Assembly: GCF_020529025.1 (NCBI RefSeq)
Contig: NZ_JACNMM010000011.1
Span: forward strand, 62,001-126,000
Source of the DNA: Oceaniglobus trochenteri
GTDB lineage: Bacteria; Pseudomonadota; Alphaproteobacteria; Rhodobacterales; Rhodobacteraceae
Reading direction: 5' to 3'
Length of the DNA stretch: 64,000 bases
This document shows, one piece after another, positions 35,540 to 57,908 of the stretch. The notes under the pieces are model-generated. The model was given only the letters and a program-made list of their open reading frames with translations, ran no database searches and was not told the DNA's origin. Numbering within the stretch: position 1 is the stretch's first letter; each line of letters starts with the position of its first letter. The position numbers and the translations under genes are program-made.

Positions 35540-35543
35540 GCCG

Positions 35544-37901: not shown

Positions 37902-39197
37902 GTGCAAGAGTCTCATCCCCCGGTTCAGGGCGTCACCTGGATGCGTGCGCCCCGGCTTTCGTCGGAAAGCGGAGCCATGGACATCCAGAACACGGTTTCT
38001 GACATATTATCAAAGGTTAAGTCCGATGGTGACGCTGCCGTTTCCGAGTTTTCGGCGCGCTTTGACAAGGCCGATCTGACCGCGTTCGAAGTCACGTCGG
38101 AAGAACGCCAACAGGCGGTGGATGCCCTTGATCCGCAGACGCGGGCGGATACCGAATTCGCGATTGCAAACGTAACCAAATTTGCCGAAGCGCAACTTGC
38201 AACCATGCTGCCCCTCGAGGTCGAGATCCTTGATGGCGTGCATCTGGGCCACCGGATCATCCCGGTCGAACGGGTGGGCTGCTATGTTCCGGGCGGGCGC
38301 TATCCGCTCTTGTCGGCGCCGATCATGACCATCGTGCCGGCCAAGGTTGCGGGCGTGGACGAGGTGATTGCCTGCCTGCCCCCCAATGCCCACCAGGCGA
38401 TGATTGCCGGATGCCACCTCTCGGGTGCCGACCGCATTTTCCGTATCGGGGGCGCCCAGGCGATTGCCGCCATGGCCTTTGGCACCCAGACCGTGCCGGC
38501 GGTGAACAAGATCGTCGGGCCAGGCAACGCTTTCGTCAACGAGGCCAAGCGCCAGGTGTTCGGCCCTGTCGGGATCGACCAGTTGGCCGGGCCGTCCGAG
38601 ATCTATATCCTGGCCGATGCCACGGGCGACGCCGAGATGATCGCCACCGATCTTCTGGCCCAGGCCGAACATGACGTGCGCACGCGTGTCGGCCTGATCA
38701 CCACCGACGCCGGCCTTGCCGAACGGGTCGAGGCCGAAGTGACCCGGCAGTTGCAAGACCTGTCCACCGCTTCGACCGCCCAGCAGGCCTGGAACGACTA
38801 TGGCGAAATCGCCATCTGCGAGGACGAGGCCGCCATGATCGCCTATTCCGATCACATCGCGGCAGAGCACCTGCAGGTGCATACGGCAGACCCGAAGGCG
38901 TTTTCGAAGAAACTGCGCAACTACGGATCGCTTTTCATCGGCGAGATGGCAAGCGTGGTCTATTCCGACAAGTGCTGCGGCACCAACCACACGCTGCCCA
39001 CCATGGCGGCGGGGCGCTATACCGGGGGCCTTTGGGTGGGCGCCTATGTCAAGGTTGCCACCCACCAGTGGATGGAGCCCGAGGGCGTGCAGCAGGTGGC
39101 CCCGTCCGCCGTGCGGCAAAGTGCCAGCGAGGGGCTGGAGGGCCACCGCCGCGCCGCTCAGTTGCGGCTTGACCGGCTTCAGGCCAAGGCGGGCTGA
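37902..39197 (+). CDS. histidinol dehydrogenase-family NAD-dependent dehydrogenase (HisD/HpsN-like), copy 1
   Basis: A 431-residue HisD-fold protein. Zinc and catalytic residues are kept: Gln and His in LLAQAEHDV, Glu-His in AAEHLQVH, Asp in [10 protein letters not shown], His in TNHTLPT and the late His in [11 protein letters not shown]. The start is GTG at 37902, with AGGAAGG seven bases upstream. It is unlikely to be biosynthetic HisD, because of catabolic context and a second copy at 48957-50285. Relatives such as sulfopropanediol dehydrogenase (HpsN) oxidise a primary alcohol to the acid in two steps. It has its own promoter with the LacI-type operator, and ends overlapping the convergent amidase gene by 19 bases. 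Confidence 0.8.
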
Positions 39198-40537
39198 AGG
39201 ATCGCGTGGTCGGTTGCCGCCTCGAAGGCGGCACCGATCCGCAACAGCGTGGTTTCGTCCCCCCGGCGCCCGACGATCTGCAGGCCAAGCGGCAGGCCGT
39301 CGGCAAGACCCATGGGAACCGACAGGGCGGGATGGCCGGTCATGTTGAAGGGGATGGTGCGCATGGCCGTCCAGACCGGTTTGCCATCATTAAAGGCGCT
39401 GAAGGGCGGCGCCGGGGCCATGACCGTCGGCAGGATCAGCGCGGCGTGGCGGCTTAGCAGGGCGTCAAGAGTTGCCCGCAACGCGGGAACCGCCGCGCGC
39501 GCGGCCGAAACCTGCGCCGGGCCGATCTTTTGCCCCATCTGGATGCTGGCGCGGGCCATGGGGCCGATGGCATCGGGCGCGCCGCTGACGCGCGGGCCGT
39601 GTGCGGCAAAGCCCTCGGCCAGCAGGATATCGCACCCGGCCGCCTCGATCGCGGCATAGGGCGGCAGGTCGGCAAGGGCGATGCGGGCGCCACACAGGCT
39701 CAGCACCGATGCCGCCGCATCGAGCATGGGCAAGAGCGCCGGATGCGCCGCCTCGTCCTCGGCCCAGGCCCGGCCATAGGCCAGGCTGATCCCCTCGACG
39801 GGCCCCGGCATCCACTCGCGCCCGGTCATGGCAAAGAAGGCCAGCGCCGCATCCCCGACCGTGCGGCCGATGGGGCCGGCATGATCCAGCGAAGGCGAAA
39901 GCGGCATGACACCCCCAAGCGGCAAGGCGCCATGGCTGGGCTTCAACCCGACAACGCCGCAATAGGCGGCGGGGCTGCGGATCGACCCGCCGGTATCCGT
40001 TCCCAGTGCGATCCTGACCATGCCAGCGGCCACTGCCGCGGCCGAGCCGGAGGACGAGCCGCCCGTCACATGCGCGCCGTTCCAGGGGTTTGTCGCAGGC
40101 GGTGCAAGGGCGCTGTCATCCGGCCCGACGGTCGCCATTTCATAGGTCGCGACCACGCCCAGCGGGATCGCCCCGGCATCCAGCATCGCCCTGACCACGG
40201 GAGCGGTTTCCTTGGCCACGCGATCTGCCTGCAACCGCGACCCCCAGCGTATGGGCCAGCCTTCAAGGTCGATGACATCCTTGATGGCGAAGGGAATGCC
40301 GTGCAGCGGGCCACGGTCCTGCCCGCTGGCCAGTTCCGCGTCCGCCCGCCGGGCGGCGCGCAGGGCCTCTTCCCCCGCGACATGCACGAAGGCCCTGACA
40401 GCCGGGTTTCGCGCGGCAATCCGTGCCAGGTGCATCTCGGTCAGGGCCACCGCGCTGAACCGACCTGCCCGCAGGGCTGCGCCTGCCGCGTGGATAGGCA
40501 GGTCGCAAGGGGCGGTACAATCGGTGGCCTGGTTCAA
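39179..40537 (-). CDS. amidase (amidase signature family)
   Basis: A 452-residue amidase-signature protein. The Ser-cisSer-Lys triad is visible: Lys in PFAIKDVIDLEG and the serine-rich GGSSSGSAAAVAAGM with TDTGGSIRSPAAYCG. It would hydrolyse a carboxamide to acid and ammonia in the cytoplasm. The start is probably TTG at 40537, overlapping the stop of the RraA gene (TTGA), because the N-terminal helix region of the family begins there and no other start is near. It is the last gene of the long minus-strand array and overlaps the HisD-like gene tail to tail. Confidence 0.84.
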   Translation of the reverse strand: MNQATDCTAPCDLPIHAAGAALRAGRFSAVALTEMHLARIAARNPAVRAFVHVAGEEALRAARRADAELASGQDRGPLHGIPFAIKDVIDLEGWPIRWGSRLQADRVAKETAPVVRAMLDAGAIPLGVVATYEMATVGPDDSALAPPATNPWNGAHVTGGSSSGSAAAVAAGMVRIALGTDTGGSIRSPAAYCGVVGLKPSHGALPLGGVMPLSPSLDHAGPIGRTVGDAALAFFAMTGREWMPGPVEGISLAYGRAWAEDEAAHPALLPMLDAAASVLSLCGARIALADLPPYAAIEAAGCDILLAEGFAAHGPRVSGAPDAIGPMARASIQMGQKIGPAQVSAARAAVPALRATLDALLSRHAALILPTVMAPAPPFSAFNDGKPVWTAMRTIPFNMTGHPALSVPMGLADGLPLGLQIVGRRGDETTLLRIGAAFEAATDHAILQPALA

Positions 40538-41229
40538 GTGCGGGCTTTTTCGAATGCGCTCCAGGCGGCTTCGAAGCGGGCGAAATCAAAGCCGGGTTCG
40601 CGCGCGGGGCCAAGGATCAGGTGCTCGGTGCCCTGCATCTTGGCGATGGCACCGGCAATCTCTCCGATCAGTTCGGCGGGAATGACAACCGCGCCGTGAC
40701 GGTCGGCATGGACCAGATCGCCCTGCCCCACGGTCAGCCCGAAGACCGACACCGGCGTGCCAAGTTCGGTGACATGCACGAAACCGTGGCTGGGGCCGAT
40801 CGACCCGGCGATCACCGGAAAGCCCGCGACCATATCGCCCAGGTCACGCATCACACCGTTGGTCAGCGCGCCGGACATGCCGAAACCCTTGTGGATCGTG
40901 GTGTTCACCTCGCCCCAGTAGGCGCCGATGCAGTTCGGATAATCGACATCCTCGACCACCGCGACCGAGGGTTTCGGGCCCTCGGCCATGGCCTTGTAAT
41001 AGGCCATCCGCCGGGTGCGGATCACATCGGGCGCTTCGGTGGGCGGGGCAAGGGCCGAAATCTTCGCGGTGACTGCATAGCCCACCACGGCGCCGCCTTC
41101 CGGGTCGGAACACAGCATGGTGCCACGGGTGAAATCGTTGAAGCCACGCTTGCCCTGGGCCACCTCGATGGCGTTGCAGACCGTGGGCGTGTCCACGCTG
41201 CGCAGCAGTTTCAGAAGGGCGTCATCCAT
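40534..41229 (-). CDS. RraA-like family protein (4-hydroxy-4-methyl-2-oxoglutarate aldolase type)
   Basis: A 231-residue RraA/HMG-aldolase fold protein. Typical elements are LRSVDTPTVCNAIE at the N-terminus, GALTNGVMRDLGDM holding the Arg-Asp pair of the active site, and VHADRHGAVVIP near the metal site. Members are divalent-metal retro-aldolases or oxaloacetate decarboxylases for 2-oxo acids. In this operon it may release pyruvate or oxaloacetate late in the pathway. The ATG overlaps the hydrolase stop by eight bases. Confidence 0.82.
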   Translation of the reverse strand: MDDALLKLLRSVDTPTVCNAIEVAQGKRGFNDFTRGTMLCSDPEGGAVVGYAVTAKISALAPPTEAPDVIRTRRMAYYKAMAEGPKPSVAVVEDVDYPNCIGAYWGEVNTTIHKGFGMSGALTNGVMRDLGDMVAGFPVIAGSIGPSHGFVHVTELGTPVSVFGLTVGQGDLVHADRHGAVVIPAELIGEIAGAIAKMQGTEHLILGPAREPGFDFARFEAAWSAFEKART

Positions 41230-41923
41230 CGGTTTTCTCCAGCCATGCTGCCAGCGCAGCGTTGGTTTCTTCAGGTTGTTCCAGGGTCGGAAGATGCCCG
41301 GCCCCGTCGATAATGGTAAGTTGGCTGCCCGCCATCAGGCCGTGCATCAGTTCATGGCGCTCGACCGGGCAAAGCGCGTCGTCGCGCCCGCACAGCACCA
41401 GGGCCGGGCCATCATAGGCGCGCAGGGTGTCCTGCTGATCGGGGCGGTTGGCCAGCGCGCGGGATTGGTTGACGAAAACGGTGTCGCCCAGCGACAGGGC
41501 CATTTCCATGCACAGATCCAGGATCGCGCCCCGGTTCGGCCCGTCGGTCAGGTAGTTCGGCTTCATCTCGTCGCGCATCACCGCTTCCAGACCGCCGCGC
41601 CCCACCTTGTCGATCTGCGGGCCCCGGCGCTCGGCCACCTGGGGCAGTTCGGCCCGGGGGTTGGTGTCCAGCAACGCGATGCCGGCAATGCGCCCGGGTG
41701 CCTGGCGCAGCACCTCCATCGCCACGATCCCGCCCATGGACAGCCCCGCCAGGGCAAAGCGCGGCGGGGCATCGTGCAGAACCTGCGCGGCCAGCGACTC
41801 CATGCTGTCATGCCCGCCGATGGGCGCGCAGTGAACCACGCGCCCGCTCGAGAAGGCCGCAACCTGGGGGCCGAACAGGCGCGCATCGCACATCATGCCC
41901 GGCAGCAGAACAAGCGGGGTCAA
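41222..41923 (-). CDS. alpha/beta hydrolase
   Basis: A 233-residue alpha/beta hydrolase. The nucleophile elbow is GLSMGG (Ser), the acid lies in LCGRDDALCP and the histidine in GAGHLPTLEQP. The small size and motifs resemble enol-lactone hydrolases and related esterases. The substrate is unknown. The ATG overlaps the stop of the MetE-like gene (ATGA at 41920-41923). Confidence 0.82.
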   Translation of the reverse strand: MTPLVLLPGMMCDARLFGPQVAAFSSGRVVHCAPIGGHDSMESLAAQVLHDAPPRFALAGLSMGGIVAMEVLRQAPGRIAGIALLDTNPRAELPQVAERRGPQIDKVGRGGLEAVMRDEMKPNYLTDGPNRGAILDLCMEMALSLGDTVFVNQSRALANRPDQQDTLRAYDGPALVLCGRDDALCPVERHELMHGLMAGSQLTIIDGAGHLPTLEQPEETNAALAAWLEKTDG

Positions 41924-43041
41924 GAAACCAGAGCCGCCCCTTCGGCCATGGCGCCCAGCTTTGCATAGGCGATTTCAGGATCGACAGCGCCAAAGCCCGC
42001 AAAGGTGCCAAAGCCGCAATCCGACCCCGCGATCACCCGTTCCGCCCCGACGATATCGGTAAAGCGGGCGATCCGCTGGGCGATCAGTTCCGGGTGTTCG
42101 ACGAAGTTCGTCGTCGTGTCCACCACGCCGGGCACCAGCACCTTGTCATCGGGAATGTCGCCCTTGCGGTCACGGAAGACGGCCCATTCATGGCCATGGC
42201 GCGGGTTCGAGGTTTCGAACAGCACATAGCGTGATCTGGTGGACATCAGCGTGTCGAACATCCGCGACATGGGAATGTCACAGACATGCGGCCCCTCGTA
42301 ATTGCCCCAGCAGATATGAACCCGCACCCTGTCTTGCGGCACATCCTGAAGAGCGTGGTTCAGCGCCTCGACATGGCTGGCGGCGATCTTGAGGAATTCG
42401 TCATCCGAAAGATCGTTGAACAGCATGTGGCGCGACAGGGCCAGGTCGGGGCAATCAAGCTGAAGATCCAGCCCCGCGCCCACGATGGTTTCGTATTCGG
42501 CCTTCATGGCATCGGCAATCGCGGCCAGGTAGGCCTCGCGCGTCTTGTAGAAATCGTTTTGCAGAAACAGCGACACGACACCCGGCGAGGCGGCATTCAT
42601 GAAGCCGCGTTCCACCCCGTGCCTTTCCATCGCGCCCTTGAGGTTGGCGATGTCCTTCTCCAGCTCGCCCTGCCCCTTCGAGCGCACCTCGCCCACGCAC
42701 ATCGGGCGGGCGTATTGCGGGGTGCCCCCTTCGTCGGCGATGCGCTTCAGGAAGGTGGGAAAGCGCTTGAGATCGGCCGGTGCGTTGCGCGGGCTGTCGC
42801 CGTCAAACCCGGTGTAGCGATCCTTGACATAGGTGGCATAGCTGATCTTCGAGGTTTCGCCGTCGCTGACGATACCAACCCCCGCGGTCACCTGTTTGCG
42901 CACGGTCTCATCGACGGCCTCGGTCATGGCGGCGTCGAAAGCGGCAAGATCATAGTCCTCTTTCCGCTCGCGGGCGAAGATGTGATCGACCACCTTCTGC
43001 GTGCGCGGCAAGGAACCGACGTGGGTAGTAAGAACGGGCAT
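41920..43041 (-). CDS. cobalamin-independent methionine synthase (MetE C-terminal/UroD fold) family protein
   Basis: A 373-residue protein with the MetE-type zinc barrel only, starting MPVLTTHVGSLPRT as in this family. Zinc ligands are visible as HICWGN (His and Cys) and GSDCGFG (Cys), with YVLFETSNPRHGHE providing an acidic residue. MetE proper has two such halves; single-barrel relatives include epoxyalkane:coenzyme M transferase and other thiol-alkyl transfer or C-S lyase enzymes. It is therefore a candidate methyl- or alkyl-transfer step on the unknown substrate. An intercistronic hairpin separates it from the cupin gene. Confidence 0.8.
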   Translation of the reverse strand: MPVLTTHVGSLPRTQKVVDHIFARERKEDYDLAAFDAAMTEAVDETVRKQVTAGVGIVSDGETSKISYATYVKDRYTGFDGDSPRNAPADLKRFPTFLKRIADEGGTPQYARPMCVGEVRSKGQGELEKDIANLKGAMERHGVERGFMNAASPGVVSLFLQNDFYKTREAYLAAIADAMKAEYETIVGAGLDLQLDCPDLALSRHMLFNDLSDDEFLKIAASHVEALNHALQDVPQDRVRVHICWGNYEGPHVCDIPMSRMFDTLMSTRSRYVLFETSNPRHGHEWAVFRDRKGDIPDDKVLVPGVVDTTTNFVEHPELIAQRIARFTDIVGAERVIAGSDCGFGTFAGFGAVDPEIAYAKLGAMAEGAALVS

Positions 43042-43119: not shown

Positions 43120-44085
43120 TCAGCCTTTCCAGGTGGCTCCGGCGGCATCGTCGGTGGCGACGATGTGGTAAAGCGCGGCTTCACCGGTCATCGAGGGCAC
43201 GGCGCTGTGGGCGAGGTTCTCGGGCACGCTCATGGTGTCACCGGGCGCCAGGGTGGCCGAGCCGCCATCCCATTCGATACGCCAATGGCCCTTGACCGGC
43301 ATCAGGACCGAGGGGCGGTCATGGGCGTGTTTTTCCTCGGTGGCCGAGGCGCGGGTGAGGAAGTCGATCTCGAACCCCGGCTTGTCGCGGATGATCCCCT
43401 TCTCGCCGATCACCTTGACCGGGCCTTCATTGGCCAGGGCATACATGTCGAGATAGCGGCGCACATAGCCACCCACCACTTCCATGGCGGTGGGGCAGTC
43501 GACCTTGTCGAGTTCGGCCTTGGTGAGAACCGGCATCGGCTTGACGTCATCGGGCAGGTTCTGGCCCTTCTTGGTGTCGTAAAGCTTGCCGTTCTCGCCC
43601 AGCACCAGGCCGTGATCCTTGGCCTCTTCGATGACATGGGGCGCCCAGATCACGCCGCCGCCGGCGTCATCGCCGCCCAGAACCGCCATGATCATCCCGT
43701 AGTCGGTGCCGATGTTCTCGAACCCGCGGAAGATGTTGGTGGGAATGTTGAAGATGTCGCCCTCTTCCAGGATCACCTCGCCGGCGTCGCCCTTTTCGCC
43801 CCAGAAGAACCGCCAGCGGCCCGACAGGATGAAGAACACCTCGGCGGTGCGGTGATTGTGCAGCGAGTTGCGGCACTTGGGCGGCTGGCCCGCCGCACCG
43901 ATGTTGAAACCGTGCGGCGTGGTGATGTGGACATGCTGATCGGGGGATTCCGATACGCCGCCACCGATGATGGTGAAGTTTTCCTTCAGGTTCGAGCCGG
44001 GTGTGTGGGCGTCGATGAAGGCAGTCTTGCAGGGTTGCAGATCGCCGTAACGGACGATGCGCGATTCCATGTCTTGCGGGGTCAT
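43120..44085 (-). CDS. cupin domain-containing protein (two cupins)
   Basis: A 321-residue bicupin. The first cupin (about 70-145) has CRNSLHNHRTAEVFFILSG and DIFNIPTNIFRGFENIG; the second (about 225-310) has KHAHDRPSVLMPVKGHWRIEW and DTMSVPENLAHSAV. Histidines in both halves could bind a metal, as in bicupin dioxygenases and isomerases. AAGGAA precedes the ATG. The reaction is unknown; ring cleavage, isomerisation or ligand sensing are all possible. It follows the three SnoaL-like genes after a palindromic hairpin. Confidence 0.78.
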   Translation of the reverse strand: MTPQDMESRIVRYGDLQPCKTAFIDAHTPGSNLKENFTIIGGGVSESPDQHVHITTPHGFNIGAAGQPPKCRNSLHNHRTAEVFFILSGRWRFFWGEKGDAGEVILEEGDIFNIPTNIFRGFENIGTDYGMIMAVLGGDDAGGGVIWAPHVIEEAKDHGLVLGENGKLYDTKKGQNLPDDVKPMPVLTKAELDKVDCPTAMEVVGGYVRRYLDMYALANEGPVKVIGEKGIIRDKPGFEIDFLTRASATEEKHAHDRPSVLMPVKGHWRIEWDGGSATLAPGDTMSVPENLAHSAVPSMTGEAALYHIVATDDAAGATWKG

Positions 44086-44223: not shown

Positions 44224-45192
44224 TCATTCGCGACCGGCCTCGTGCAGCAGGATCTGTTTCCAGATCGCCACCTCGTCCCAAAGGCTCCACTCGCGGCGCA
44301 GGCCCCAGGGGCCGAACTCGGCATGGGTGAAGCCCATGATGTGAACGGGCGCCCCGGTGGGCGGGCCGTAAATCCCGTGGCCGGTATGGGTGCCCGTCAG
44401 GCTCCAGCGGATGGCGGCGCGGTCGGGTTGCCCGGCATCCGAACGCCCGATGCGGTGATCGACCGAAAAGGTCGAATCCGGGAAGGCGGTGCGCAACTGC
44501 ATCCACTGCGCCTCGGCGAAGGGGCGGCCCCAGCCGGTGACGCCGCCCGCATGATAAAGGTTCACCGCGCGGTCGTAGGTTTCACCGATCACGGCGAAAT
44601 CGAAATCCATGATGCGGGTCACGATACCGGCCAACTTCTCGCCCAGGGGGTGATCGTTGCCCTTGCCGCTGTAGGGGCCGGGGCGGTCCTGGTCGGGCGT
44701 GAAGGGGCGCAGGGCGCTCCCCGCGCCGCCTTCGCGTTCGATGCTCTGCGCGGCCCAGTCGCGCGGGCTGTGGCCCAGCTGTTGCACCATGGCGGAAATG
44801 TCATAGCACAGCCATTCGTCGGTGATCACCTCGTCCTGGACGAAGCAATCCGCGATGGCGCGCGCCGCCACCACCCGCCCCGTGGGCGGGCCGAAAACGC
44901 CATGCCCGGTATGGGTGCCGATGATCATCGAGCGGTGCGAGGAAAGGTAACCCTGGTCGGCGTCGCCCGACCAGATCACGTCATCGCCCAGGATCTGGCG
45001 GTCGGGAAAGGCGGAAAGCGAGGCGAGCGTGTCCTTGATGACGCCGTCGTTGCCCTCGATCAGGCCAACGGTCGAGCGCATGACGATATCCTTGCCATAG
45101 CTCTGCAAAAGCGAGCCGATCTGGCGCCCTTCCCAGATTTCATAAGTAACGCCCTGGATATAGTCGGGCAGGTTGGCAAATCGTGCGGTCAT
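44224..45192 (-). CDS. SnoaL/NTF2-like protein, paralogue 3 of the tandem set
   Basis: A 322-residue protein made of two NTF2-like (SnoaL) halves. The N-half has DYIQGVTYEIWEGRQIGSLL, then SSHRSMIIGTHTGHGVFGPP, and IADCF with DEWLCYD. The C-half repeats the core as WSLTGTHTGHGIYGPPTGAP followed by MGFTHAEFGPWGLRREWSL. The fold is used by polyketide cyclases, isomerases and dehydratases with small hydrophobic pockets. The ATG overlaps the previous paralogue's stop (ATGA). Three such genes in a row suggest one hetero-oligomeric enzyme or three similar reactions. Confidence 0.78.
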   Translation of the reverse strand: MTARFANLPDYIQGVTYEIWEGRQIGSLLQSYGKDIVMRSTVGLIEGNDGVIKDTLASLSAFPDRQILGDDVIWSGDADQGYLSSHRSMIIGTHTGHGVFGPPTGRVVAARAIADCFVQDEVITDEWLCYDISAMVQQLGHSPRDWAAQSIEREGGAGSALRPFTPDQDRPGPYSGKGNDHPLGEKLAGIVTRIMDFDFAVIGETYDRAVNLYHAGGVTGWGRPFAEAQWMQLRTAFPDSTFSVDHRIGRSDAGQPDRAAIRWSLTGTHTGHGIYGPPTGAPVHIMGFTHAEFGPWGLRREWSLWDEVAIWKQILLHEAGRE

Positions 45193-46169
45193 TCCACGTT
45201 CCCCGTGTGCAGGTGAATCTGTTTCCACACCGAAACCTCGTCGATCAGGGTGAATTCGCGGCGCAGGCCCCATTCGCCCCATTCGGCATGGGTAATGCCC
45301 ATGACGTGAACCTCGGCCCCGGTGGGGGCGCCGAAGAAGCCCGGCCCCGAATGCTTGCCGGTCAATGACCAGCGCACCGCGGCGCGGTTCGGCGTGCCCG
45401 GGTCCGAGCGGCCGATCTGGTGATGGGTTTCGAATGTCGCCGTCGGAAAGGAGGACCGCAGGCGCATCCAGTCGGTTTCGGCGAACTCATGGGACCAGCC
45501 GCCGCGCGACCCCCAGTGTTCGGTGCGCACGGCGCGGTCGTATTCCTTGCGGATGACGGTGAAATCCTTGTCCATCATCCGGGTCAGGATATCGGCAAGG
45601 CGCGCGCCCCATTCGTTGTCGTTGCCGCGCCCGGTATAGGGGCCCTGCACATCGTCGCGGGGGTGGAAGGGGCGCTGGCAGGCCTCGGGGCCGCCTTCAT
45701 CGCGGATCAGGTCGCGGGCGAATTCGGCCGGATCTCCGCCCAGCTGGCGCACGATGCCGCCGGCATCGCGGATCAGCCATTCGTCGTCGATGACATCGGC
45801 CTTGGCGGCGCAATCGGCAATCGCGCGGATTTCAAAAGACCTGCCAGTGGGCGCGCCGAACAGGCCATGCCCGGTATGGGTGCCGGTGGTCACCAGGCGG
45901 TGCGAGGACAGGTAACGCCCCTCTTCCGGCCCCTCGGACCAGATCACGTCTTCGCCGTAAAGCTGGCGGTCGGGGAATTCGGCAAGGGTGGCCAGGGTAC
46001 CGTCGATCACCCCTTCGTTGCCCCGCACCATCCCCGAGGGAAAGCGCATGGGAATGTCCTTGCCGTAATAGCGGTGCAGGGTCGAAAGGCCCCGATCCTC
46101 CCAGATTTCCTTGGTGATCTTCAGAATGTAGTCGGGCAGATCCTTGAACTGATTGGAGAAATCTTTCAT
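45189..46169 (-). CDS. SnoaL/NTF2-like protein, paralogue 2 of the tandem set
   Basis: A 326-residue two-half NTF2-like protein, clearly related to its neighbours: DYILKITKEIWEDRGLSTL, SSHRLVTTGTHTGHGLFGAP, IADCAAKADVIDDEWLIRD in the N-half, and WSLTGKHSGPGFFGAPTGAE with MGITHAEWGEWGLRREFTL in the C-half. The second His of the N-half THTGHG motif has no counterpart in the C-half (KHSGPG). ATGA overlaps link it to both neighbours. Function unknown. Confidence 0.78.
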   Translation of the reverse strand: MKDFSNQFKDLPDYILKITKEIWEDRGLSTLHRYYGKDIPMRFPSGMVRGNEGVIDGTLATLAEFPDRQLYGEDVIWSEGPEEGRYLSSHRLVTTGTHTGHGLFGAPTGRSFEIRAIADCAAKADVIDDEWLIRDAGGIVRQLGGDPAEFARDLIRDEGGPEACQRPFHPRDDVQGPYTGRGNDNEWGARLADILTRMMDKDFTVIRKEYDRAVRTEHWGSRGGWSHEFAETDWMRLRSSFPTATFETHHQIGRSDPGTPNRAAVRWSLTGKHSGPGFFGAPTGAEVHVMGITHAEWGEWGLRREFTLIDEVSVWKQIHLHTGNVE

Positions 46170-48960: not shown

Positions 48961-50285
48961 TCCGCCGCCTCGGGAAGACGGGCCGGGCCGCCATAGGGCA
49001 CGTTGATCCCGCCATAGCGCCGCACACGCAGGTTGCACTGCTCGGCATGGCCGACGAAGCCTTCCAGCAGGCAGAGGCGCGAGCCATAGGCCCCGATCCG
49101 GGCGGCGGCCTCATCCGTCGTCACCTTCTGATAGCTGTGGGTCTTGAGGTACTTGCCAACCCAAAGCCCCCCGGTATAGCGGCCCGCCTTCTTCGTCGGC
49201 AGCGTGTGGTTGGTGCCAATCACCTTGTCGCCATTGGCCACGTTGGTGCGCGGCCCAAGGAACAGCGCGCCATAAGAGGTCATCTTCTCCAGGAACCAGT
49301 CGTCGCGGTCGGTCATCACCTGAACATGTTCCGAGGCGATATCGTCGGCCACTTCCAGCATCTCGTCATAGGTATCGCAGACGATCACTTCGCCGTAGTC
49401 TTCCCAGCTGACCTTGGCGGTGCCGGCGGTCGGCAGGATGCCCAGGATGCGGTCGATCTCTTCCAGCGTCTCGCGGGCGAGCTTTTCCGAGTTGGTCACC
49501 AGGACAGCGGGCGAGTTATAGCCATGTTCGGCCTGGCCCAGCAGGTCGGTCGCGCAGATTTCGGCATCGACGGTTTCGTCCGCGATGACCATGGTTTCGG
49601 TCGGGCCGGCGAAAAGGTCGATCCCGACCCGCCCGAAAAGCTGGCGCTTGGCCTCGGCCACGAAGGCATTGCCGGGGCCGACCAGCAGGTGAACCGGCGC
49701 GATGCTTTCGGTTCCGATCGCCATGGCGCCCACCGCCTGGATGCCGCCCAGCACATAGATTTCATCGGCGCCGCCCAGGTGCATCGCCGCGATCACGGCG
49801 GGGTTCGGTTCGCCGTTGAAAGGGGGCGTGCAGGCGATGATGCGCGGCACACCCGCCACCTTTGCAGTGGCCACCGACATATGGGCCGAGGCCACCATGG
49901 GAAACTTGCCGCCCGGAACATAGCAGCCGACGGATTGCACCGGGATGTTCTTGTGGCCCAGAATGACGCCTGGCAGGGTTTCCACCTCGATATCCAGCAT
50001 CGAGTCGCGCTGTGCCTGGGCAAAGTTCGTCACCTGCTCTTGCGCGAATTTGATATCGGCCAGGTCCTGGGGGCTGACCTTGGCGATCAGCGCCTGGATT
50101 TCTGCCTCGGTCAGGCGATAGGTTTCGCGGTCGTACTTGTCGAATTTCACGGCCAGCTCGCGCACGGCGGCATCGCCGCGATCCTCGATATCCTTCAGCG
50201 TCGCGGCCACGACGCTGGCGGTTTTCGCATCATCCTCTGCCCGGTCTGCTTCGGGTTTGCCGCGCTTGAGATATGTGATGGTCAT
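48957..50285 (-). CDS. histidinol dehydrogenase-family NAD-dependent dehydrogenase (HisD/HpsN-like), copy 2
   Basis: A 442-residue HisD-fold protein. Residues expected for zinc binding and catalysis are present: LLGQAEHGY (Gln, His), ASEHVQVM (Glu, His), [14 protein letters not shown] (Asp, His) and [13 protein letters not shown] (late His). It resembles the HpsN-type sulfopropanediol dehydrogenase branch more than biosynthetic HisD. GAGGA precedes the ATG. It differs clearly from copy 1 at 37902, so the two may act on different alcohols. It follows the ABC ATPase gene after 168 bases containing a large hairpin. Confidence 0.82.
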
Positions 50286-50453: not shown

Positions 50454-51509
50454 TCATCCGTGGGCGATCCTTTCGCCGGTCTTGGTGTCGAAGAGGTGGC
50501 AGATGGCTGCGGGGATGCGGGCCTTTACCACTTCGCCGATCTCGGCGCGGTATTCCTTGTTGGTCTTGATCGACACCAGCGAGCCGGCCAGCCGCCAGGT
50601 TATCATCGACGCCTCGCCCAGAAGCTCGATCGAATACATCGGCGCCGAGATCTGCGCCTCTTCCTCGACGATCTCGGCATCCTCGGCGCGAAAGCCCAGC
50701 GTCACGTTCCCCGAGGCGCTTGCCGGCAGGCCCTCGACCCGGATGCCGTCGGCGCTGAAGACGCCATCCTCAAGCCGCCCCTCGACAAGGTTCATGGCGG
50801 GCGAGCCGATGAAGCTGGCGACGAAGGTGTTGGCGGGGTTGTCGTAGATGTCGGTCGGGGTGCCGACCTGCTGGATCTTGCCCTTGTTCATCACCACCAC
50901 GCGGTCGGCCAGGGTCATCGCCTCGATCTGGTCGTGGGTCACGTAGACCGTCGTGGTCTTCAGCTTGGATTGCAGGTTCTTGATCTGCGCGCGGGTGCTG
51001 ACGCGCAGCTTCGCATCCAGGTTCGACAGCGGTTCGTCCATCAGGAACACCGTGGGCTTGCGCACGATGGCGCGCCCCAGGGCCACGCGCTGGCGCTGCC
51101 CGCCCGAAAGTTCCGCAGGCCGGCGGTCCATGAAATCCTCAAGCTCGACCATCGCGATGGCCTTCATGACCATGTCGTGATGCTGGTCCTTGGGCACCTT
51201 GCGCACCCGCAGCGGAAAGCGGATGTTCTCGTAGACCGAAAGGTTCGGGTAGAGCCCGTAGGACTGGAACACCATCGAGATGTCGCGGTCCTTCGGTTCA
51301 AGGTCGTTGACCACCTTGTCGCCCAGAAGGATCTGCCCGTCGGTCACATCCTCAAGCCCCGCGATCATCCGCATGGTGGTGGATTTGCCGCAGCCCGAGG
51401 GGCCCAGCAGAACCAGGAATTCCTGGTCCGCGATGTCGAGATCGAAGTTCTCGACCCCCACGAACGAGCCCCAGCGCTTGTTCACGTTCTTGAGTTGAAG
51501 TCTGGCCAT
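50454..51509 (-). CDS. sugar-type ABC transporter ATP-binding protein (UgpC/MalK type)
   Basis: A 351-residue ATPase with Walker A GPSGCGKST, signature LSGGQRQRVALGRA, Walker B VFLMDEPLSNLDA and H-loop YVTHDQIEA, then a C-terminal regulatory domain. It starts MARLQLKNVNKRWGSF. It is the motor of the importer encoded at 51523-54782, the transporter of the SnoaL/HisD-like gene set. Confidence 0.9.
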   Translation of the reverse strand: MARLQLKNVNKRWGSFVGVENFDLDIADQEFLVLLGPSGCGKSTTMRMIAGLEDVTDGQILLGDKVVNDLEPKDRDISMVFQSYGLYPNLSVYENIRFPLRVRKVPKDQHHDMVMKAIAMVELEDFMDRRPAELSGGQRQRVALGRAIVRKPTVFLMDEPLSNLDAKLRVSTRAQIKNLQSKLKTTTVYVTHDQIEAMTLADRVVVMNKGKIQQVGTPTDIYDNPANTFVASFIGSPAMNLVEGRLEDGVFSADGIRVEGLPASASGNVTLGFRAEDAEIVEEEAQISAPMYSIELLGEASMITWRLAGSLVSIKTNKEYRAEIGEVVKARIPAAICHLFDTKTGERIAHG

Positions 51510-51522: not shown

Positions 51523-52404
51523 TTATCCCTTGACGGCGCCGGCGGTCAGGCCGCTCACGATTTGACGTTGGAAGAACAGGATCAGCACGAAGAGCGGAAC
51601 AATGGCCGAAACCACGGCCGCCACGGCATACATCACCTTGCCCTCTTCCTGGGTCGATCCCAGGAACGAGTTGATTTTCGGGATCATCGTCGCGTTTTCC
51701 TGCGTCAGCAGCATCGAGGTGACCGTGAAATCATTGTAGGCCAGCAGGAAGCTGAACAGGCCCGTCGTCACCACGCCGGGCCACATGACCGGGATGATGG
51801 CCAGGCGGAACGCCTGGAACCGGGTGCACCCATCCACCATCGCGGCCTCGTCCAGGTCTTTCGGGATCGAAAGAAAGAACGAATGCAGCATCCACAGGGT
51901 GAAGGGCTGGTTGATCGCCACCAGGACGATGATCGTGGTGGGCAGGTAGCCCCAGATGTTCAGCTCGAAGAAGGGCAGAAGATAGCCCGAAACCAGCGTC
52001 ACATGGGGCATCGCCCGGAACACCAGCGCTGCCATCAGCAGCCAGAAGGTGTACTTGAAACCCGACCGCGCCAGGGCATAGCCCCCCAGCGTGCCCAGGG
52101 TCAGCGAGATGACGACCGTGAAGAAGACCACGATCGAGGTATTGATGACGGCCCGCCAGAATTCCTGCTGGACCCAGGCGCCCTCATATCCCGCGCCGGT
52201 GAAGGCACTGCCGTTCTGGCGCTGGGTGACGGGGCCGGTAATCGCGTTCATCCAGTCGGCCCGCGAGAAGAAGTCACCCTCGACCTTGAAGGAACCCCAC
52301 ATGGTCCACAGGAAAGGAAAGGCGGCGACCACAAGCCAGAACAGGACAAAGGCGGTCGACACGAAGACCAGCGAAGGCGGTTTTCTATTTGCTAGATTTG
52401 CCAT
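51523..52404 (-). CDS. ABC transporter permease (MalG-like)
   Basis: A 293-residue CUT1 permease with six membrane spans, first at LVFVSTAFVLFWLVVAAFPFLW. The EAA loop is DLDEAAMVDGCTRFQAFRLAIIP and the C-terminus GLTAGAVKG. It lies 11 bases below the other permease and 13 above the ATPase gene. Confidence 0.88.
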   Translation of the reverse strand: MANLANRKPPSLVFVSTAFVLFWLVVAAFPFLWTMWGSFKVEGDFFSRADWMNAITGPVTQRQNGSAFTGAGYEGAWVQQEFWRAVINTSIVVFFTVVISLTLGTLGGYALARSGFKYTFWLLMAALVFRAMPHVTLVSGYLLPFFELNIWGYLPTTIIVLVAINQPFTLWMLHSFFLSIPKDLDEAAMVDGCTRFQAFRLAIIPVMWPGVVTTGLFSFLLAYNDFTVTSMLLTQENATMIPKINSFLGSTQEEGKVMYAVAAVVSAIVPLFVLILFFQRQIVSGLTAGAVKG

Positions 52405-52415: not shown

Positions 52416-53444
52416 TCAGGTCTTGCGGTTGAATTCGCGCCAGTTGCGGCGCAGCACCGGCAACAGCAGGATGATGACGCCGACGATGGTCAGCATCGAG
52501 GTTGCCGCGGCCGACCCGAAAAGAGGCGATTCAGCGGCGCGAAGATCGTTGTAGATCAGGTAGCTGAGCGATGTCGCGCTGGCGGCCGCGGAAAAGCCGA
52601 TGATCGGCTCGAAGACGCGGAAGTTGTCCATCAGCTGCATCAGCGCGATGAAGGTCGCGAGCGGCATCAGGTAAGGGATGGTGACGAACCGCACCCTTTC
52701 CCACCGGCTGGCGCCATCCACCATGGCCGATTCCAGGGTGTCCTGCGGGACGGTCTGAAGCCCGGCGTAGAAGACCACGAAGGCGAAGGGCGCGGAATGC
52801 CAGACGCCGTAGACGAACAGCGTCACCCATGTCAGCGCCGGAGACGCCTTGAGCGAGAGCGAGGGATCGGCGAAGATCGTCTGCAGAGCGGCGCCGATGA
52901 TGCCCCGGCTGTCGATCATCCAGAACAGCACCAGCGAACCGACAAGCGGTGTGACCAGCATGGGCAGCAGCGAGAAGAAGATCACCGGCCCCTTCAGCAG
53001 CTTGGGGATGGAATTGACCACGATCGCGATGATGAACCCCAGGAGGATCACCAGAGGCGTCACGATGAAGGTATAGGCCAGGGTGAAGATCAGCGCCTTG
53101 TAGAAGGGCAGGTTCATGATCCGGTTGCGGATCTCGCCGAAATTCTCGCTGGTGGCGAAGATCTCGCCGATCTCGTCGAAGGCCAGGTGGCTGGCGTTCG
53201 AATAGGTGTCAAGGCCGTTGAAACGCCCGGCGGGCTGTTCGGCGCGCAGCTCGGCCATGGCTTCGGCGTCGACGCTGGCTTCCTTGGTACAGCCGAAGGG
53301 GCCGCAATTCTCGGATACGACCACGATCTGTTCGTGTTCGATGAACAATGATTGATAACCCACCGAAAGGATCGGCAGTGCGATGAACAGGATCATCGCC
53401 AGTAGCGAAGGCCATATGAAGGCCATGAAAGTCTTGTGAGGCAT
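52416..53444 (-). CDS. ABC transporter permease (MalF-like) with extended periplasmic loop
   Basis: A 342-residue permease, start ATG at 53444 with GGGGGAAAG upstream. After the first membrane span there is a periplasmic insert of about 60 residues (EQIVVVSENCGPFGCTKE and following) before the second span, as in MalF-type subunits; its two cysteines might form a disulfide. The EAA loop is TLESAMVDGASRWERVRFVTIP. It forms the channel with the MalG-like subunit. Confidence 0.86.
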   Translation of the reverse strand: MPHKTFMAFIWPSLLAMILFIALPILSVGYQSLFIEHEQIVVVSENCGPFGCTKEASVDAEAMAELRAEQPAGRFNGLDTYSNASHLAFDEIGEIFATSENFGEIRNRIMNLPFYKALIFTLAYTFIVTPLVILLGFIIAIVVNSIPKLLKGPVIFFSLLPMLVTPLVGSLVLFWMIDSRGIIGAALQTIFADPSLSLKASPALTWVTLFVYGVWHSAPFAFVVFYAGLQTVPQDTLESAMVDGASRWERVRFVTIPYLMPLATFIALMQLMDNFRVFEPIIGFSAAASATSLSYLIYNDLRAAESPLFGSAAATSMLTIVGVIILLLPVLRRNWREFNRKT

Positions 53445-53509
53445 GACTTTCCCCCTTGTCGCGCCCTGCGCTGGCACGTGGTCGACCGTTCCGCGAAACG
53501 GTATGGAAA

Positions 53510-53529: not shown

Positions 53530-53543
53530 CCTGTCGCTTCAAC

Positions 53544-54782
53544 CTAGTTCAGGTAACCGGCTTCGGTGGCGGCGGTCGTGTAGGCCGCGTTCACGTCGGC
53601 GAGGGCCTGTTCGGCGCTTTCCTTGCCTTGCAGGAACTCGGCCAGGTTATCGCCAAGTGCCGTGTGCAGAAGACCCATGTAGGGCAGCATCGGATAGGGC
53701 CGCGCACCCCCCTGAAGGTTGGCGATCACGCCCGTGGCCGAGGGGGCCGGTTCGTATCCGTCGATCAGCCAGACAGCCGCATCCGCGTTTTCGGCCAGCA
53801 TGTCCTGGGACAGGCCGTTCATCATGGCCCGGAACGATGCCTCGGCATCTTCATCCGAGATGTTCTTGGCGATGGTGAACCCGTCCCACCAGAGTGCTGC
53901 GGCCGGGATCGAGTTGCCATTGAAGGTCGGAGCGGCGGCGAAGGCGGTTGCCTTGGCGATCTCCGGCGCGGGGCTGTCCTCGGCGATCATCTCGGAGGTA
54001 CGCGACCCCCACCCGATGGCCAGCGCGTTTTCGCCCGCTTCCCAGATCGGCCGGGTCGAGTTGCTGTCGAAGGTCGCCCAGTCGGCGCTCATGTAGTCCA
54101 GCATCTTCTTCATGTTCTCGAGAACGGCCAGGCCATTTTCGTTCTGAATGGCCAGCTTGGCCGAGCCGGGCTCGAAGAAATTGTCGCCGGTGGCCAGGTA
54201 GGTGTTCACGAATTCCGCAGCGACGTTCCATCCCGGCTTGAAGTTCGAGGCAAGCGGCGCGTCCATGACACCGGCCGATTTCAGCTTGTCGGCAGCGGCC
54301 AGAAGCTCTTCATAGGTGGCCGGAACGTCGATCCCGTTCTCTTCCAGGATGTCCTTGCGGTAATAGAGATGCTGTGCGTTCGCCATGAAAGCGATCGCCA
54401 TGATCTTGCCGTCCACCACGATCTTCTGGCTGTCCAGAAGCTGGTCGCCCCACTTTTCGACATATTCGTCAAGCGGCCGGATCAATCCGTCATTGAGCAG
54501 CGGAACGATGGAATTGGTGGCAACCACCGCCACGGTATAGCTTGCGGGGTTGGTGGTCAGCGCGGGCACCTGGATGTTCTTGTGCTCTTCGGTCTGGTTT
54601 CTTGTCACCTCGACCGTGTCGCTGGCGCATTTGCCGGCCCAGTCGGCAACCGCATGAAGTGCGACGAAGTCGTTCGACAGAATGCGAACCGACCCGCTTT
54701 CGATTCCGCAATCCGCCCAGGCGACCCCCGCCGATGCAGTCAGCGCGGCCGATACAATCGTTGCCTTGATCCTGAAGTTCAT
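53544..54782 (-). CDS. ABC transporter substrate-binding protein (COG1653 type)
   Basis: A 412-residue periplasmic protein. The signal peptide is about residues 1-23 (MNFRIKATIVSAALTASAG, cleavage near VAWA-DCGIE). The start follows GGGAGG with six bases spacing. The mature part has the UgpB/MalE-type fold (IVPLLNDGLIRPLDEYVEKWG, LYYRKDILEENGIDVPATYEE, WEAGENALAIGWGSR, AALWWDGFTIAKN). The family usually binds sugars or glycerophosphodiesters, but the downstream enzymes do not look like a simple sugar pathway. First gene of the long array; its promoter carries a LacI-type operator. Confidence 0.87.
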   Translation of the reverse strand: MNFRIKATIVSAALTASAGVAWADCGIESGSVRILSNDFVALHAVADWAGKCASDTVEVTRNQTEEHKNIQVPALTTNPASYTVAVVATNSIVPLLNDGLIRPLDEYVEKWGDQLLDSQKIVVDGKIMAIAFMANAQHLYYRKDILEENGIDVPATYEELLAAADKLKSAGVMDAPLASNFKPGWNVAAEFVNTYLATGDNFFEPGSAKLAIQNENGLAVLENMKKMLDYMSADWATFDSNSTRPIWEAGENALAIGWGSRTSEMIAEDSPAPEIAKATAFAAAPTFNGNSIPAAALWWDGFTIAKNISDEDAEASFRAMMNGLSQDMLAENADAAVWLIDGYEPAPSATGVIANLQGGARPYPMLPYMGLLHTALGDNLAEFLQGKESAEQALADVNAAYTTAATEAGYLN

Positions 54783-55242: not shown

Positions 55243-55260
55243 GCCGGGCCTACGCCCGGC
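55243..55260. repeat. short perfect inverted repeat
   Basis: GCCGGGC-CTAC-GCCCGGC. It could form a 7-pair hairpin in either direction. No T-run, role unknown. Confidence 0.35.
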
Positions 55261-55471: not shown

Positions 55472-55520
55472 AAACCTGCTCTCCTGACCTGAGGGAACTC
55501 AACCAATTCAGGACAGGATC

Positions 55521-56672
55521 ATGGCTTCGAAGGATCAAGAGAACACCGGCGCGGGAAAAGTCGGGAAAGAACCGGTGCTTCAGGCCGAACGCCGCGATTT
55601 CACCGCCCTCGTCCCGGAAAAGCGCGAGCGGGTGCAGCCGATGAAGGGCTTCGATCCGATCTATACCGACATCGTGGATTACATCATCCGCTGCACGCAC
55701 CGCATCTGGGATGAACGCGACGTGGGCCTGATCTATACCCACTACACCCACAACTGCGTCGTCTATCACGCCACCGGCACGATCTATAATCGCGAAGACG
55801 TGGTGCATGACACCATCAAGCGCATGTTCATGCTGCCCGAACGCCGCGGCATGGCCACCCAGGTGATCTGGAATGGCAACGAGAATGACGGCTTCTACAC
55901 CTCGCACCTTGTGACCGGCACGGGCCGTCACACCCAGCCGGGCATCTATGGCAAGCCTACAGGCCGCACCTTCGTGGCGCGCACCATCGCCGACTGTCTG
56001 ATCTACGAGAACATGATCTACCGCGAATGGCTGGTGGTGGATTCCATGGCGCAGGTGAAACAGATCGGGCTGGACGCCCAGAAATACGCCGAAGACCTGG
56101 CCCGCCCCTATTTCGAAAAGGGCCTTCTGGCCGTCGACATGGGCGAAAACCGCCGCCTGATCGGGCAGTATCCCCCCGAATCCAAGCCCGATACCGCCAT
56201 CGCCAACACGGATCAGGAGCGTGAGGTTCTGGAGTGGCTGCACGACATCCACAACCGGCGGATGTTCGGCCGGATCCGCGATGTCTATGCCCCCACCGTG
56301 CAATACCACGGCCCGCTGATGAAAGAGCTTTACGGCCACGGCGCGGTCACCCACCAGACCGTTGGCCTTTACGCCTCGGTGCCCGATGGCTTCTACATGC
56401 CCCAGCACATCTGCTCGGTCCCCTGCGAAGAGGGCGGCATCAAGGTCGCGGTGCGCTGGCTGGTCGAGGGGCATCACCTGGGCTGGGGCGTGATGGAGGA
56501 ACTGGGCGCGCCCAGTGGCAAGCGGGTTCAGATCATGGGGATGAGCCATTTCCACATCCGCGATGGCCGTATCGTCGACGAATGGACCAACTACGACGAG
56601 ATGTCGGTGCTGATGCAGATCAAGCTGGCCCAGATGGCCGACACGCCCAGCGTCGTTCCGGCGGCCGAATAG
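55521..56672 (+). CDS. SnoaL/NTF2-like protein, divergent fourth paralogue
   Basis: A 383-residue protein of two NTF2-like halves with an N-terminal extension of about 40 residues. It shares the pattern of the tandem set: DYIIRCTHRIWDERDVGLIY, TSHLVTGTGRHTQPGIYGKP, IADCLIYENMIYREWLVVD, then in the C-half WLVEGHHLGWGVMEELGAPS and MGMSHFHIRDGRIVDEWTNYDE. AGGA precedes the ATG. It has its own LacI-type operator, so it is expressed with the divergent array. Function unknown; SnoaL-type isomerase or dehydratase chemistry is the best guess. Confidence 0.78.
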   Translation: MASKDQENTGAGKVGKEPVLQAERRDFTALVPEKRERVQPMKGFDPIYTDIVDYIIRCTHRIWDERDVGLIYTHYTHNCVVYHATGTIYNREDVVHDTIKRMFMLPERRGMATQVIWNGNENDGFYTSHLVTGTGRHTQPGIYGKPTGRTFVARTIADCLIYENMIYREWLVVDSMAQVKQIGLDAQKYAEDLARPYFEKGLLAVDMGENRRLIGQYPPESKPDTAIANTDQEREVLEWLHDIHNRRMFGRIRDVYAPTVQYHGPLMKELYGHGAVTHQTVGLYASVPDGFYMPQHICSVPCEEGGIKVAVRWLVEGHHLGWGVMEELGAPSGKRVQIMGMSHFHIRDGRIVDEWTNYDEMSVLMQIKLAQMADTPSVVPAAE

Positions 56673-56714
56673 CGGCGCGGTCGCGAACGCCCTCACGGTT
56701 TCGGGAAGGACAAG

Positions 56715-57908
56715 GTGCAGCAGATGTCGCAAACCACGGCCGACACCCCGCAGGCCGATGATCCGGTGCCACGGCGCGAGGTGACCCTCGCGAACTGGCG
56801 CCGGCAACCCTACAGCGGATGGGCCTTTTCCCATCTGCGAGAGATTGCGCCGACAGCCGCCATCAATCCGCAACGCGGCAGGGAAACGCTTCCCGACATG
56901 GGCGGCGTGCTTTCCGAACCGATGGCGTTCGGAAATGACAGCAGGACGATTGGCGCGGTGCTGGGCCTGCTCAGCACCGATGTCCTGCTGGCCTGCCGGA
57001 ACGGGCAGCCGACGCTTGGCTGGGTCGCGCCCCATGCGGATGCCAACGCGCCGCACCTGTTGTTCTCGGTGTCGAAATCCATCACCGGGCTTGTTGCCGG
57101 TGCCCTGGCCCAGGATGGCAGGTTGGACCCTTCGGCCCCTGTCGTGCACTATCTTCCCGAGTGCGCGGGATCGGCCTTCGAAGATGCCACCGTCCGAAAC
57201 CTTCTCGACATGCGCGTTTCGATGAATGTGGACGAAACCTATGGCAACGACCTTGACTGGGGCGCCCGGTATCGCCGTGCCGTGCTTTGGGATCCGGCCC
57301 AGCCCGGCGAAAAGATCGACCTCCTGTCCCTTCTCTTCGACCTGCGCAAAGGGGACGAGGGCCATGGGCAGGCCTTCCGCTATCGTTCGGCCAACACCGA
57401 TGTCCTTGGCGCCGTGATCAGCGCCGCGGCGGGCAAGGCCTTTCATGACGTTGCCGCCGAAACCCTCTGGGCGCCCATGCAGGCCCGGGGCGAAGCGCAT
57501 ATCGGCGTCGACGGCATCGGCACCGCCCTTACCGCCGGCGGGATTTCCTGCACCGCCTTCGACCTGGCCAGGATAGGCGAACTTTTGCGCTGCGGCGGGG
57601 CTGTCGGCGGTAAACAGGTTCTTTCGCCGGACCTGGTGGAAGACACCCTGCATGGCGGTGACGCCGAAGCCTGGAACACGGGGGATTGGGGCAAAACGAT
57701 GCCCGGCCACCGGTATCGCAACCAATGGTACGCCCGGGGTGACAGCGACGGTTGCTTCTTTGCCAAGGGCATTCACGGCCAGTGGCTTTACGTGAACCCG
57801 CGGCGGCAGGTGACAATCGTCAAGCTGTCCAGCCAGGACGTGGCGAAAGAGGAAACGACGAACGCCCTTACCCTTGCCCTGCTGGACGCGATTGCCGAAC
57901 GCCTGTGA
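56715..57908 (+). CDS. serine hydrolase (beta-lactamase fold, 6-aminohexanoate-dimer hydrolase-like)
   Basis: A 397-residue class C beta-lactamase-fold hydrolase without a signal peptide. The SxxK motif is Ser118-Val-Ser-Lys121 (LFSVSKSITG), and the second element is YRSANTD. The N-terminal GWAFSHLREIAPTA region is typical of NylB-like cytoplasmic amide and ester hydrolases. Start at GTG 56715 with GGAAGGA upstream, or ATG 56724. It is probably cotranscribed with the SnoaL-like gene, 42 bases upstream, and may open an amide or ester of the pathway substrate. Confidence 0.83.
   Translation: MQQMSQTTADTPQADDPVPRREVTLANWRRQPYSGWAFSHLREIAPTAAINPQRGRETLPDMGGVLSEPMAFGNDSRTIGAVLGLLSTDVLLACRNGQPTLGWVAPHADANAPHLLFSVSKSITGLVAGALAQDGRLDPSAPVVHYLPECAGSAFEDATVRNLLDMRVSMNVDETYGNDLDWGARYRRAVLWDPAQPGEKIDLLSLLFDLRKGDEGHGQAFRYRSANTDVLGAVISAAAGKAFHDVAAETLWAPMQARGEAHIGVDGIGTALTAGGISCTAFDLARIGELLRCGGAVGGKQVLSPDLVEDTLHGGDAEAWNTGDWGKTMPGHRYRNQWYARGDSDGCFFAKGIHGQWLYVNPRRQVTIVKLSSQDVAKEETTNALTLALLDAIAERL

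Follow-up and report, generated by a model that had tools for sequence, protein, structure and literature searches.

A gene array in a 64-kb stretch of the Oceaniglobus trochenteri genome (the window; 64,000 nucleotides of contig NZ_JACNMM010000011.1) probably represents a single catabolic regulon under LacI control, directed at a group of related sugar-like compounds that carry several hydroxyl groups, in which a common enzymatic hub is served by interchangeable entry branches. Along the minus strand from 54782 to 39179, the array encodes a four-gene ATP-binding cassette (ABC) importer, a HisD-like dehydrogenase (HisD-A), a short-chain dehydrogenase (SDR), a LacI-family regulator, three SnoaL-like proteins (Sno3, Sno2 and Sno1), a bicupin, a MetE-like protein, an alpha/beta hydrolase, an RraA-like protein and an amidase (Table 1). 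The proposal is built from the composition of this gene set, its co-conservation, the operator-like sites that its parts share and the conservation of catalytic residues, all as read from sequence. Full-text searches of open-licence PubMed Central (PMC) articles returned no description of such a set, in agreement with an initial annotation of this DNA that had recognized no described pathway, and the family libraries alone assigned no pathway to the array proteins.

The genes and families named by that annotation are present at or near the positions it gave, as judged by Pfam- and NCBIfam-type matches. Its statement that most enzyme genes overlap by ATGA holds for five of the ten junctions from HisD-A to the amidase, which are 4-bp overlaps; the other five comprise overlaps of 1 and 8 bp, one abutting pair and gaps of 138 and 78 bp, some gene starts being predicted. 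The array had been drawn from 39179, which proved too narrow: the set reaches further, to a second HisD-like gene on the plus strand (HisD-B, 37941-39197) that converges with the amidase gene and has an operator-like site upstream. A NylB-like gene had been included in the system, and homologs of it were found in none of the 74 related loci of at least 13 kb described below.

Co-conservation and modular organization

Linkage of the core genes was assessed in an independent draw of 289 genomes of the class, with the cupin called at E <= 1e-25 and HisD-A at E <= 1e-140. The cupin is present in 31 genomes and HisD-A in 39; 25 carry both, and in 23 of these the two lie within 12 kb of each other (Fisher p 1e-20), which bears out the earlier view of one co-conserved system. 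A complementary sample was selected through the MetE-like gene. The best 80 of 573 MetE relatives, nearly all from Rhodobacteraceae or roseobacters by record title, were taken as named loci, with MetE present by construction, and 74 of the 80 span at least 13 kb. Among these 74, proteins of the Sno1-3 type occur in 72, LacI and the cupin in 71 each, HisD-A and the SDR in 68 each and an importer in 67, followed by a further double SnoaL protein termed SnoX (61), the hydrolase (57), RraA (56) and a small SnoaL protein termed SnoS (56). An S-adenosylmethionine (SAM) methyltransferase occurs in 21 of the loci, the amidase in 3, HisD-B in 2, and SnoD (the divergent SnoaL-like protein of the window) and NylB in none. 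The methyltransferase is exemplified by a class I SAM-dependent enzyme of 200 aa encoded between the cupin and MetE genes of locus L036 (9388-9990).

Similar sets extend well beyond the roseobacters. Annotated records of Pantoea dispersa, Deinococcus QL22, D. taeanensis, Alloyangia, Sinorhizobium medicae, Priestia filamentosa, Novosphingobium, Roseibium and Martelella contain them, spanning Alphaproteobacteria, Gammaproteobacteria, Deinococcota and Bacillota; the plasmid records were hand-picked from the match lists of MetE, Sno3 and SnoD. In several carriers from leaf, soil or freshwater (Pantoea, Priestia, Sinorhizobium, Deinococcus and Novosphingobium) the stretch seen contains no MetE-like gene, and an Ensifer variant has an additional aldolase as well as otnK. 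SnoaL genes also accompany an importer in Vibrio pelagius and Phaeobacter piscinae, with no hub in the stretch seen; on the V. pelagius plasmid (L135, 98-15143), four SnoaL-like genes flank a sugar-type importer, next to genes for sarcosine oxidase. Two other arrangements of MetE-like genes were noted: on a plasmid of the haloarchaeon Halobellus limi (L141, 4744-11137) five genes annotated as ester cyclase stand in a row before one, and in Sphingobium RAC03 (L083, 12001-13514) one overlaps a small gene of the NTF2 family, in the neighbourhood of aromatic and one-carbon genes.

The patterns of presence and absence suggest three modules, all of which are found in the window. A shared hub would comprise HisD-A, the SDR, LacI, the bicupin, the alpha/beta hydrolase and an aldolase of either the RraA or the HpcH type; an amide branch would comprise SnoD, HisD-B and the amidase; and a SnoaL/MetE branch would combine Sno1-3, SnoX or SnoS with MetE. 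Module counts were made in 112 loci longer than 9 kb at identity cut-offs set by us, and genes lying past contig ends are missed in them. Eight loci carry HisD-B at an identity of at least 55%, of which six also have SnoD and seven the amidase. A C-N hydrolase adjoins a HisD in both Deinococcus records, and a Mameliella locus (L010) and a Paracoccus metagenome-assembled genome (L056) hold the hub, the MetE branch, HisD-B and the amidase in the stretch seen. RraA (at least 40% identity) is found in 71 loci and an HpcH-type aldolase (at least 27%) in eight, the matches in L120 and L122 being weak and unannotated. Because the two never occur in the same locus and both can abut the hydrolase gene (62 of 71 and 4 of 8, respectively), we infer that one pyruvate-type aldolase replaces the other. 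The importer varies as well, being ABC type here, of the major facilitator superfamily (MFS) in some relatives and, beside the hub in some, a tripartite ATP-independent periplasmic (TRAP) transporter. The organism's own contig (C1, 148 kb) carries two further SnoaL/LacI/importer sets near its two ends, at C1:1-6000 (L185 1-6000) and C1:142502-148406 (L217 2503-8407), and the ATPase of the latter is 100% identical in protein to that of the window. Since the genome as a whole yields a single cupin match and a single HisD-A match at the cut-offs used, three importer sets on C1 fit a hub served by several entry branches.

Candidate operator sites

A LacI-type operator-like site, GAATACGWTTGCAA, was spotted by eye in raw intergenic sequence and afterwards tested with controls; a plain palindrome scan had returned mostly G+C-rich palindromes. 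The site occurs in three perfect copies in the window, at 37825, 54908 and 55457 (listed as GAATACGTTTGCAA and GAATACGATTGCAA in Table 1), and allowing three mismatches raises the count in the window to 11, against 5.1 expected. Across the 4.59 Mb genome, a 16-mer version, TKRAATACGWTTGCAA, is matched 13 times when as many as two mismatches are allowed, against 2 for the reversed control. The only genomic matches with one mismatch or none are the two between the binding protein and SnoD genes, and those with two mismatches include C1:196 and C1:4873 in a second SnoaL set (C1:1-6000) and C1:99823 before HisD-B.

Comparable sites recur in other genomes. A palindromic regular expression found 47 sites in 33 of the 112 related loci (2.39 Mb), none of them inside a matched gene, whereas dinucleotide shuffles gave 1, 1 and 2 sites and the reversed pattern none. 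Most of these sites precede binding-protein and ATPase genes, and others precede SnoaL, HisD-A, HisD-B, cupin, SDR, LacI or hydrolase genes. They are present in the Pantoea, Priestia and Deinococcus taeanensis loci, and in Novosphingobium identical sites stand before HisD-A, before HisD-B/LacI and before cupin/hydrolase. The array and HisD-B are therefore probably one co-regulated set with predicted binding by LacI. The main text of a survey of LacI regulons (PMC4052901) names neither histidinol, hisD nor SnoaL.

Enzymes of the array

The four SnoaL-like proteins exceed the PF07366 gathering cut-off of 28.4 bits with scores of 71.9, 52.9, 48.9 and 71.1. Each consists of two SnoaL-type halves, as judged by alignment and, for Sno3, by a model with a mean predicted local distance difference test score (pLDDT) of 92.2 that contains two NTF2-type domains. 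Sno1-3 are 45-55% identical to one another and 28-29% identical to SnoD. Single domains of Sno3 match the polyketide cyclases IdmH, SnoaL2 and AknH with target-normalised template modelling (TM) scores of about 0.7-0.8, but the window proteins differ from these enzymes in having two domains per chain and a catabolic gene context. Two-domain polyether epoxide hydrolases align with both domains of Sno3 only at a root-mean-square deviation of 16-18. The His/Asp pair that we take to be the acid-base pair of SnoaL proteins is preserved twice over in 98-99 of 99 Sno1-3 type proteins, and is often replaced in the SnoD and SnoX types.

Both HisD-like proteins, which share 46.8% identity, exceed the TIGR00069 histidinol dehydrogenase cut-off of 243.8 bits (HisD-A 427.2, HisD-B 449.7). 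A role for them in histidine synthesis is nevertheless unlikely, because the genome holds a separate, higher-scoring HisD (C31:233553-234854, 533.7 bits), presumably the biosynthetic enzyme, to which they are 38-39% identical. Residues that we assume to be catalytic, here and in the other array enzymes, are kept in 87 of 87 HisD-A and 9 of 9 HisD-B sequences. Across related loci, 98 HisD regions lie nearer HisD-A (one gene being counted as two pieces) and 10 nearer HisD-B, and the signatures of the two groups differ. The neighbours of HisD-A outside the array set gave no clue to a substrate. In one such stretch (L190, 2952-13799) HisD-A (81%) lies with an SDR, two TRAP systems and a gluconolactonase-family gene, with no SnoaL or cupin match, and appears to be put to another use.

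The MetE-like protein, of 373 residues, scores 88.9 on the best NCBIfam methionine-synthase model, below the cut-off of 406. It differs from the core cobalamin-independent methionine synthase in length, score and SnoaL neighbours, and shares with it the invariant zinc-site residues His-X-Cys, Glu and Cys (95 of 95), which we take to be the ligands. Of two papers that concern methionine synthases in roseobacters, the first (PMC12366255) contains no mention of SnoaL and the second (PMC12478193) apparently none.

In the bicupin, H76, H78, E82 and R120, presumably metal ligands, are invariant in 30 sequences. Its model (pLDDT 79.2, with residues 18-51 unreliable) is nearest to quercetinases, oxalate decarboxylases and salicylate dioxygenases, with TM scores of only about 0.4-0.5 and identities of 10-19%; a ring-cleaving activity would be a prediction from the fold. 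The RraA-like protein shares with the 4-hydroxy-4-methyl-2-oxoglutarate/4-carboxy-4-hydroxy-2-oxoadipate (HMG/CHA) aldolases LigK and PcmE an RraA-superfamily domain with an Arg-Asp pair (71 of 71) that we assume to form the active site, but scores 30.3 bits (E 3e-7) on TIGR02798, far under the 304.5 cut-off. The catalytic triad of the alpha/beta hydrolase is kept (Ser and His 78 of 78, Asp 77 of 78), as are the presumed catalytic residues of the amidase (9 of 9). The SDR is nearest to KduD-type models. With its UgpC-type ATPase, two permeases and binding protein, the importer resembles CUT1 sugar-type ABC systems with LacI regulators; the binding protein differs in that it matches solved structures only weakly and generically as sugar-binding.

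A proposed route and its alternatives

Each step of the following route is inferred from the gene set. The importer, a sugar-type ABC system in the window and an MFS or TRAP transporter in some relatives, would take up the substrate, after which the SnoaL-like enzymes, whose two domains would provide at most two His/Asp acid-base sites per chain, could enolise or retro-aldol the imported variants to a common intermediate. Depending on the branch, SnoD, HisD-B and the amidase would then remove an amide and oxidise a CH2OH group, or Sno1-3 and MetE would transfer an alkyl or methyl group through the zinc site. In the hub, HisD-A would oxidise CH2OH to a carboxylate, the SDR would oxidise a secondary alcohol, the bicupin and the alpha/beta hydrolase may cleave or rearrange an enol or lactone, and the aldolase (RraA, elsewhere HpcH type) would finally convert a hydroxy-oxo acid into pyruvate or a similar 2-oxo acid. 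Two steps predicted by the initial annotation, alcohol-to-acid oxidation by HisD and retro-aldol release by RraA, fit the intact catalytic residues and the mutual exclusion of RraA and HpcH. Its single linear order and its N- or S-alkylated marine substrate are not supported, because MetE and the amidase (the latter in 3 of the 74 MetE-selected loci) belong to separate modules that can be absent, and because many carriers live outside the sea, several of them on leaves, in soil or in freshwater. Literature searches for a link to homarine found none.

Recurrence across phyla, and of a SnoaL-MetE run in a haloarchaeon, points to a common compound of natural origin, the fate of which in bacteria the literature searched does not describe. 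Under this proposal, double-domain SnoaL proteins at present labelled ester cyclase, and HisD paralogs labelled as histidine enzymes, would acquire catabolic roles, and the layout supplies several parts open to direct testing: a binding protein, two dehydrogenases, and a regulator together with its candidate sites.

A number of observations weigh against this regulon. The regular expression for the operator was derived from the same loci on which it was scored. It finds no site in 79 of the 112, including the loci of Alloyangia, Vibrio, Ensifer NER9, Halobellus and Deinococcus QL22, and the two-mismatch genomic matches of TKRAATACGWTTGCAA also include six on other contigs, one inside the HisD-B coding region and one elsewhere in the window. 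Uniform SnoaL catalysis is called into question by the first His, which only 7 of 20 SnoD-type and 34 of 93 SnoX-type proteins retain, and SnoD itself is rare (3 of 289 class genomes at E <= 1e-80). The amide branch is not strict, the amidase being found without a HisD-B of at least 55% identity in L069, L139 and L140. Linkage of the core is likewise incomplete: six cupin genomes lack HisD-A, 14 of the 39 HisD-A genomes lack the cupin, and in stretches longer than 18 kb from five of those 14 (L190-L194) HisD-A has neither a cupin nor a SnoaL gene beside it, although four of the five show an SDR match.

Some of these facts would suit two or more unrelated operons lying merely side by side, given that any one of HisD-A, the SnoaL-importer sets and the MetE-SnoaL sets can also be found where the other two are missing; the recurrence of the joint layout in other families and phyla and the sharing of operator-like sites make this quite unlikely. 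A route for 2,3-dihydroxypropane-1-sulfonate (DHPS) or another sulfonate, with HisD-A as the sulfopropanediol dehydrogenase and the rest serving sulfonate breakdown, draws on the nearest solved relatives of HisD-A, HpsN (E 1.7e-113) and (R)-DHPS dehydrogenase (E 4.8e-112). HpsN (DHPS-3-dehydrogenase, PDB 8v35) shares its zinc-site and catalytic Glu-His residues with HisD-A (87 of 87), but its His126, which reads the sulfonate (PMC11382572; chain numbering runs one ahead of the numbering in that article, as checked on Glu318/His319), corresponds to Met in 78, Leu in 7 and Ile in 2 of the 87 HisD-A sequences, the window protein having Met, and mostly to Leu in HisD-B. Gene context also differs, and inspection of the annotated genes nearby revealed no sulfonate lyase. 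HisD-A is therefore not called a DHPS dehydrogenase, and a sulfonate route appears very improbable.

Two further readings specify the substrate. One narrows the regulon proposed here to non-phosphorylative breakdown of a sugar acid, a lactone or an ascorbate-like reductone, in which the SDR would act as dehydrogenase, the hydrolase as lactonase and HisD on a terminal CH2OH, the bicupin would cleave an enediol and the aldolase would yield pyruvate. The sugar-type importer and LacI, the KduD-like SDR, the gluconolactonase-family gene near HisD-A in L190 and the otnK and second aldolase of the Ensifer variant favor it; it leaves several SnoaL genes, the MetE branch and the amidase unexplained, and is only a tentative possibility. 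The other candidates are mycosporine-like amino acids and gadusols, UV sunscreens of algae, corals, cyanobacteria and fungi. Here SnoaL enzymes and the amidase would strip amino substituents, MetE would take the methoxy methyl, HisD would oxidise CH2OH and the bicupin would open the enediol ring, turning the seven-carbon core into a CHA-like acid that RraA could split into pyruvate and oxaloacetate; more generally, variable SnoaL enzymes and importers would handle different amino-acid decorations around a fixed hub. RraA-family aldolases split CHA into pyruvate and oxaloacetate. In its number of carbons and its functional groups the core fits the enzyme set, RraA weakly matches the CHA aldolase model, quercetinases are among the nearest folds of the bicupin model, and varying numbers of SnoaL and importer genes could match varying substituents. 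Against this stand the distance of RraA from the CHA cut-off and the lack of a visible MetE in many clusters, although to our knowledge all mycosporine- and gadusol-type compounds carry the methoxy group; searches of open-licence PMC found no published link. Breakdown of such sunscreens is thus a long shot.

Features and neighbouring genes

Table 1. Genes and operator-like sites of the proposed regulon, with window coordinates
Feature	Coordinates	Strand	Basis and remarks
Operator-like site GAATACGTTTGCAA	37825..37838	+	perfect match; upstream of HisD-B
HisD-B, second HisD-like dehydrogenase	37941..39197	+	TIGR00069 449.7 bits; start predicted
Amidase-signature hydrolase	39179..40537	-	PF01425 E 9.8e-85; start uncertain, 40450 or 40537
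RraA-like, likely 2-oxo-acid aldolase	40534..41229	-	PF03737; Arg-Asp 71/71
Alpha/beta hydrolase, PcaD-like	41222..41923	-	family match; catalytic triad residues
MetE-like single-barrel protein	41920..43041	-	PF01717 (Meth_synt_2); zinc ligands 95/95
Bicupin	43120..44085	-	Cupin_2; model and fold search
Sno1, double SnoaL-like protein	44224..45192	-	PF07366; start predicted
Sno2, double SnoaL-like protein	45189..46169	-	PF07366
Sno3, double SnoaL-like protein	46166..47188	-	PF07366; model pLDDT 92.2
LacI-family regulator	47189..48205	-	family match; start predicted
SDR	48205..48960	-	family match; start predicted
HisD-A, HpsN-like dehydrogenase	48957..50285	-	TIGR00069 427.2 bits
ABC importer ATPase, UgpC type	50454..51509	-	NF008653 458.5 bits vs cut-off 432
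ABC importer permease, MalG type	51523..52404	-	family match
ABC importer permease, MalF/UgpA type	52416..53477	-	family match
ABC importer sugar-type binding protein	53544..54782	-	family match
Operator-like site GAATACGATTGCAA	54908..54921	+	perfect match; between binding protein and SnoD
Operator-like site GAATACGTTTGCAA	55457..55470	-	perfect match; between binding protein and SnoD; best 16-mer of genome
SnoD, divergent double SnoaL-like protein	55521..56672	+	PF07366
Beta-lactamase-type (NylB-like) hydrolase	56715..57908	+	PF00144; 42 bp after SnoD; start uncertain; putative member

Just upstream of HisD-B, an oligopeptide-type ABC operon occupies 30904-37480 on the plus strand and encodes a binding protein, an M24-peptidase-like protein, two permeases and two ATPases (labels partly by eye). 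It was considered as a member of the regulon and set aside: the nearest perfect operator-like site sits past the end of the operon, beside HisD-B, and none lies in front of it. Further upstream, 273-30496 is densely packed with other catabolic operons of sugar type, several ABC importers among them, as judged by eye from the translations.

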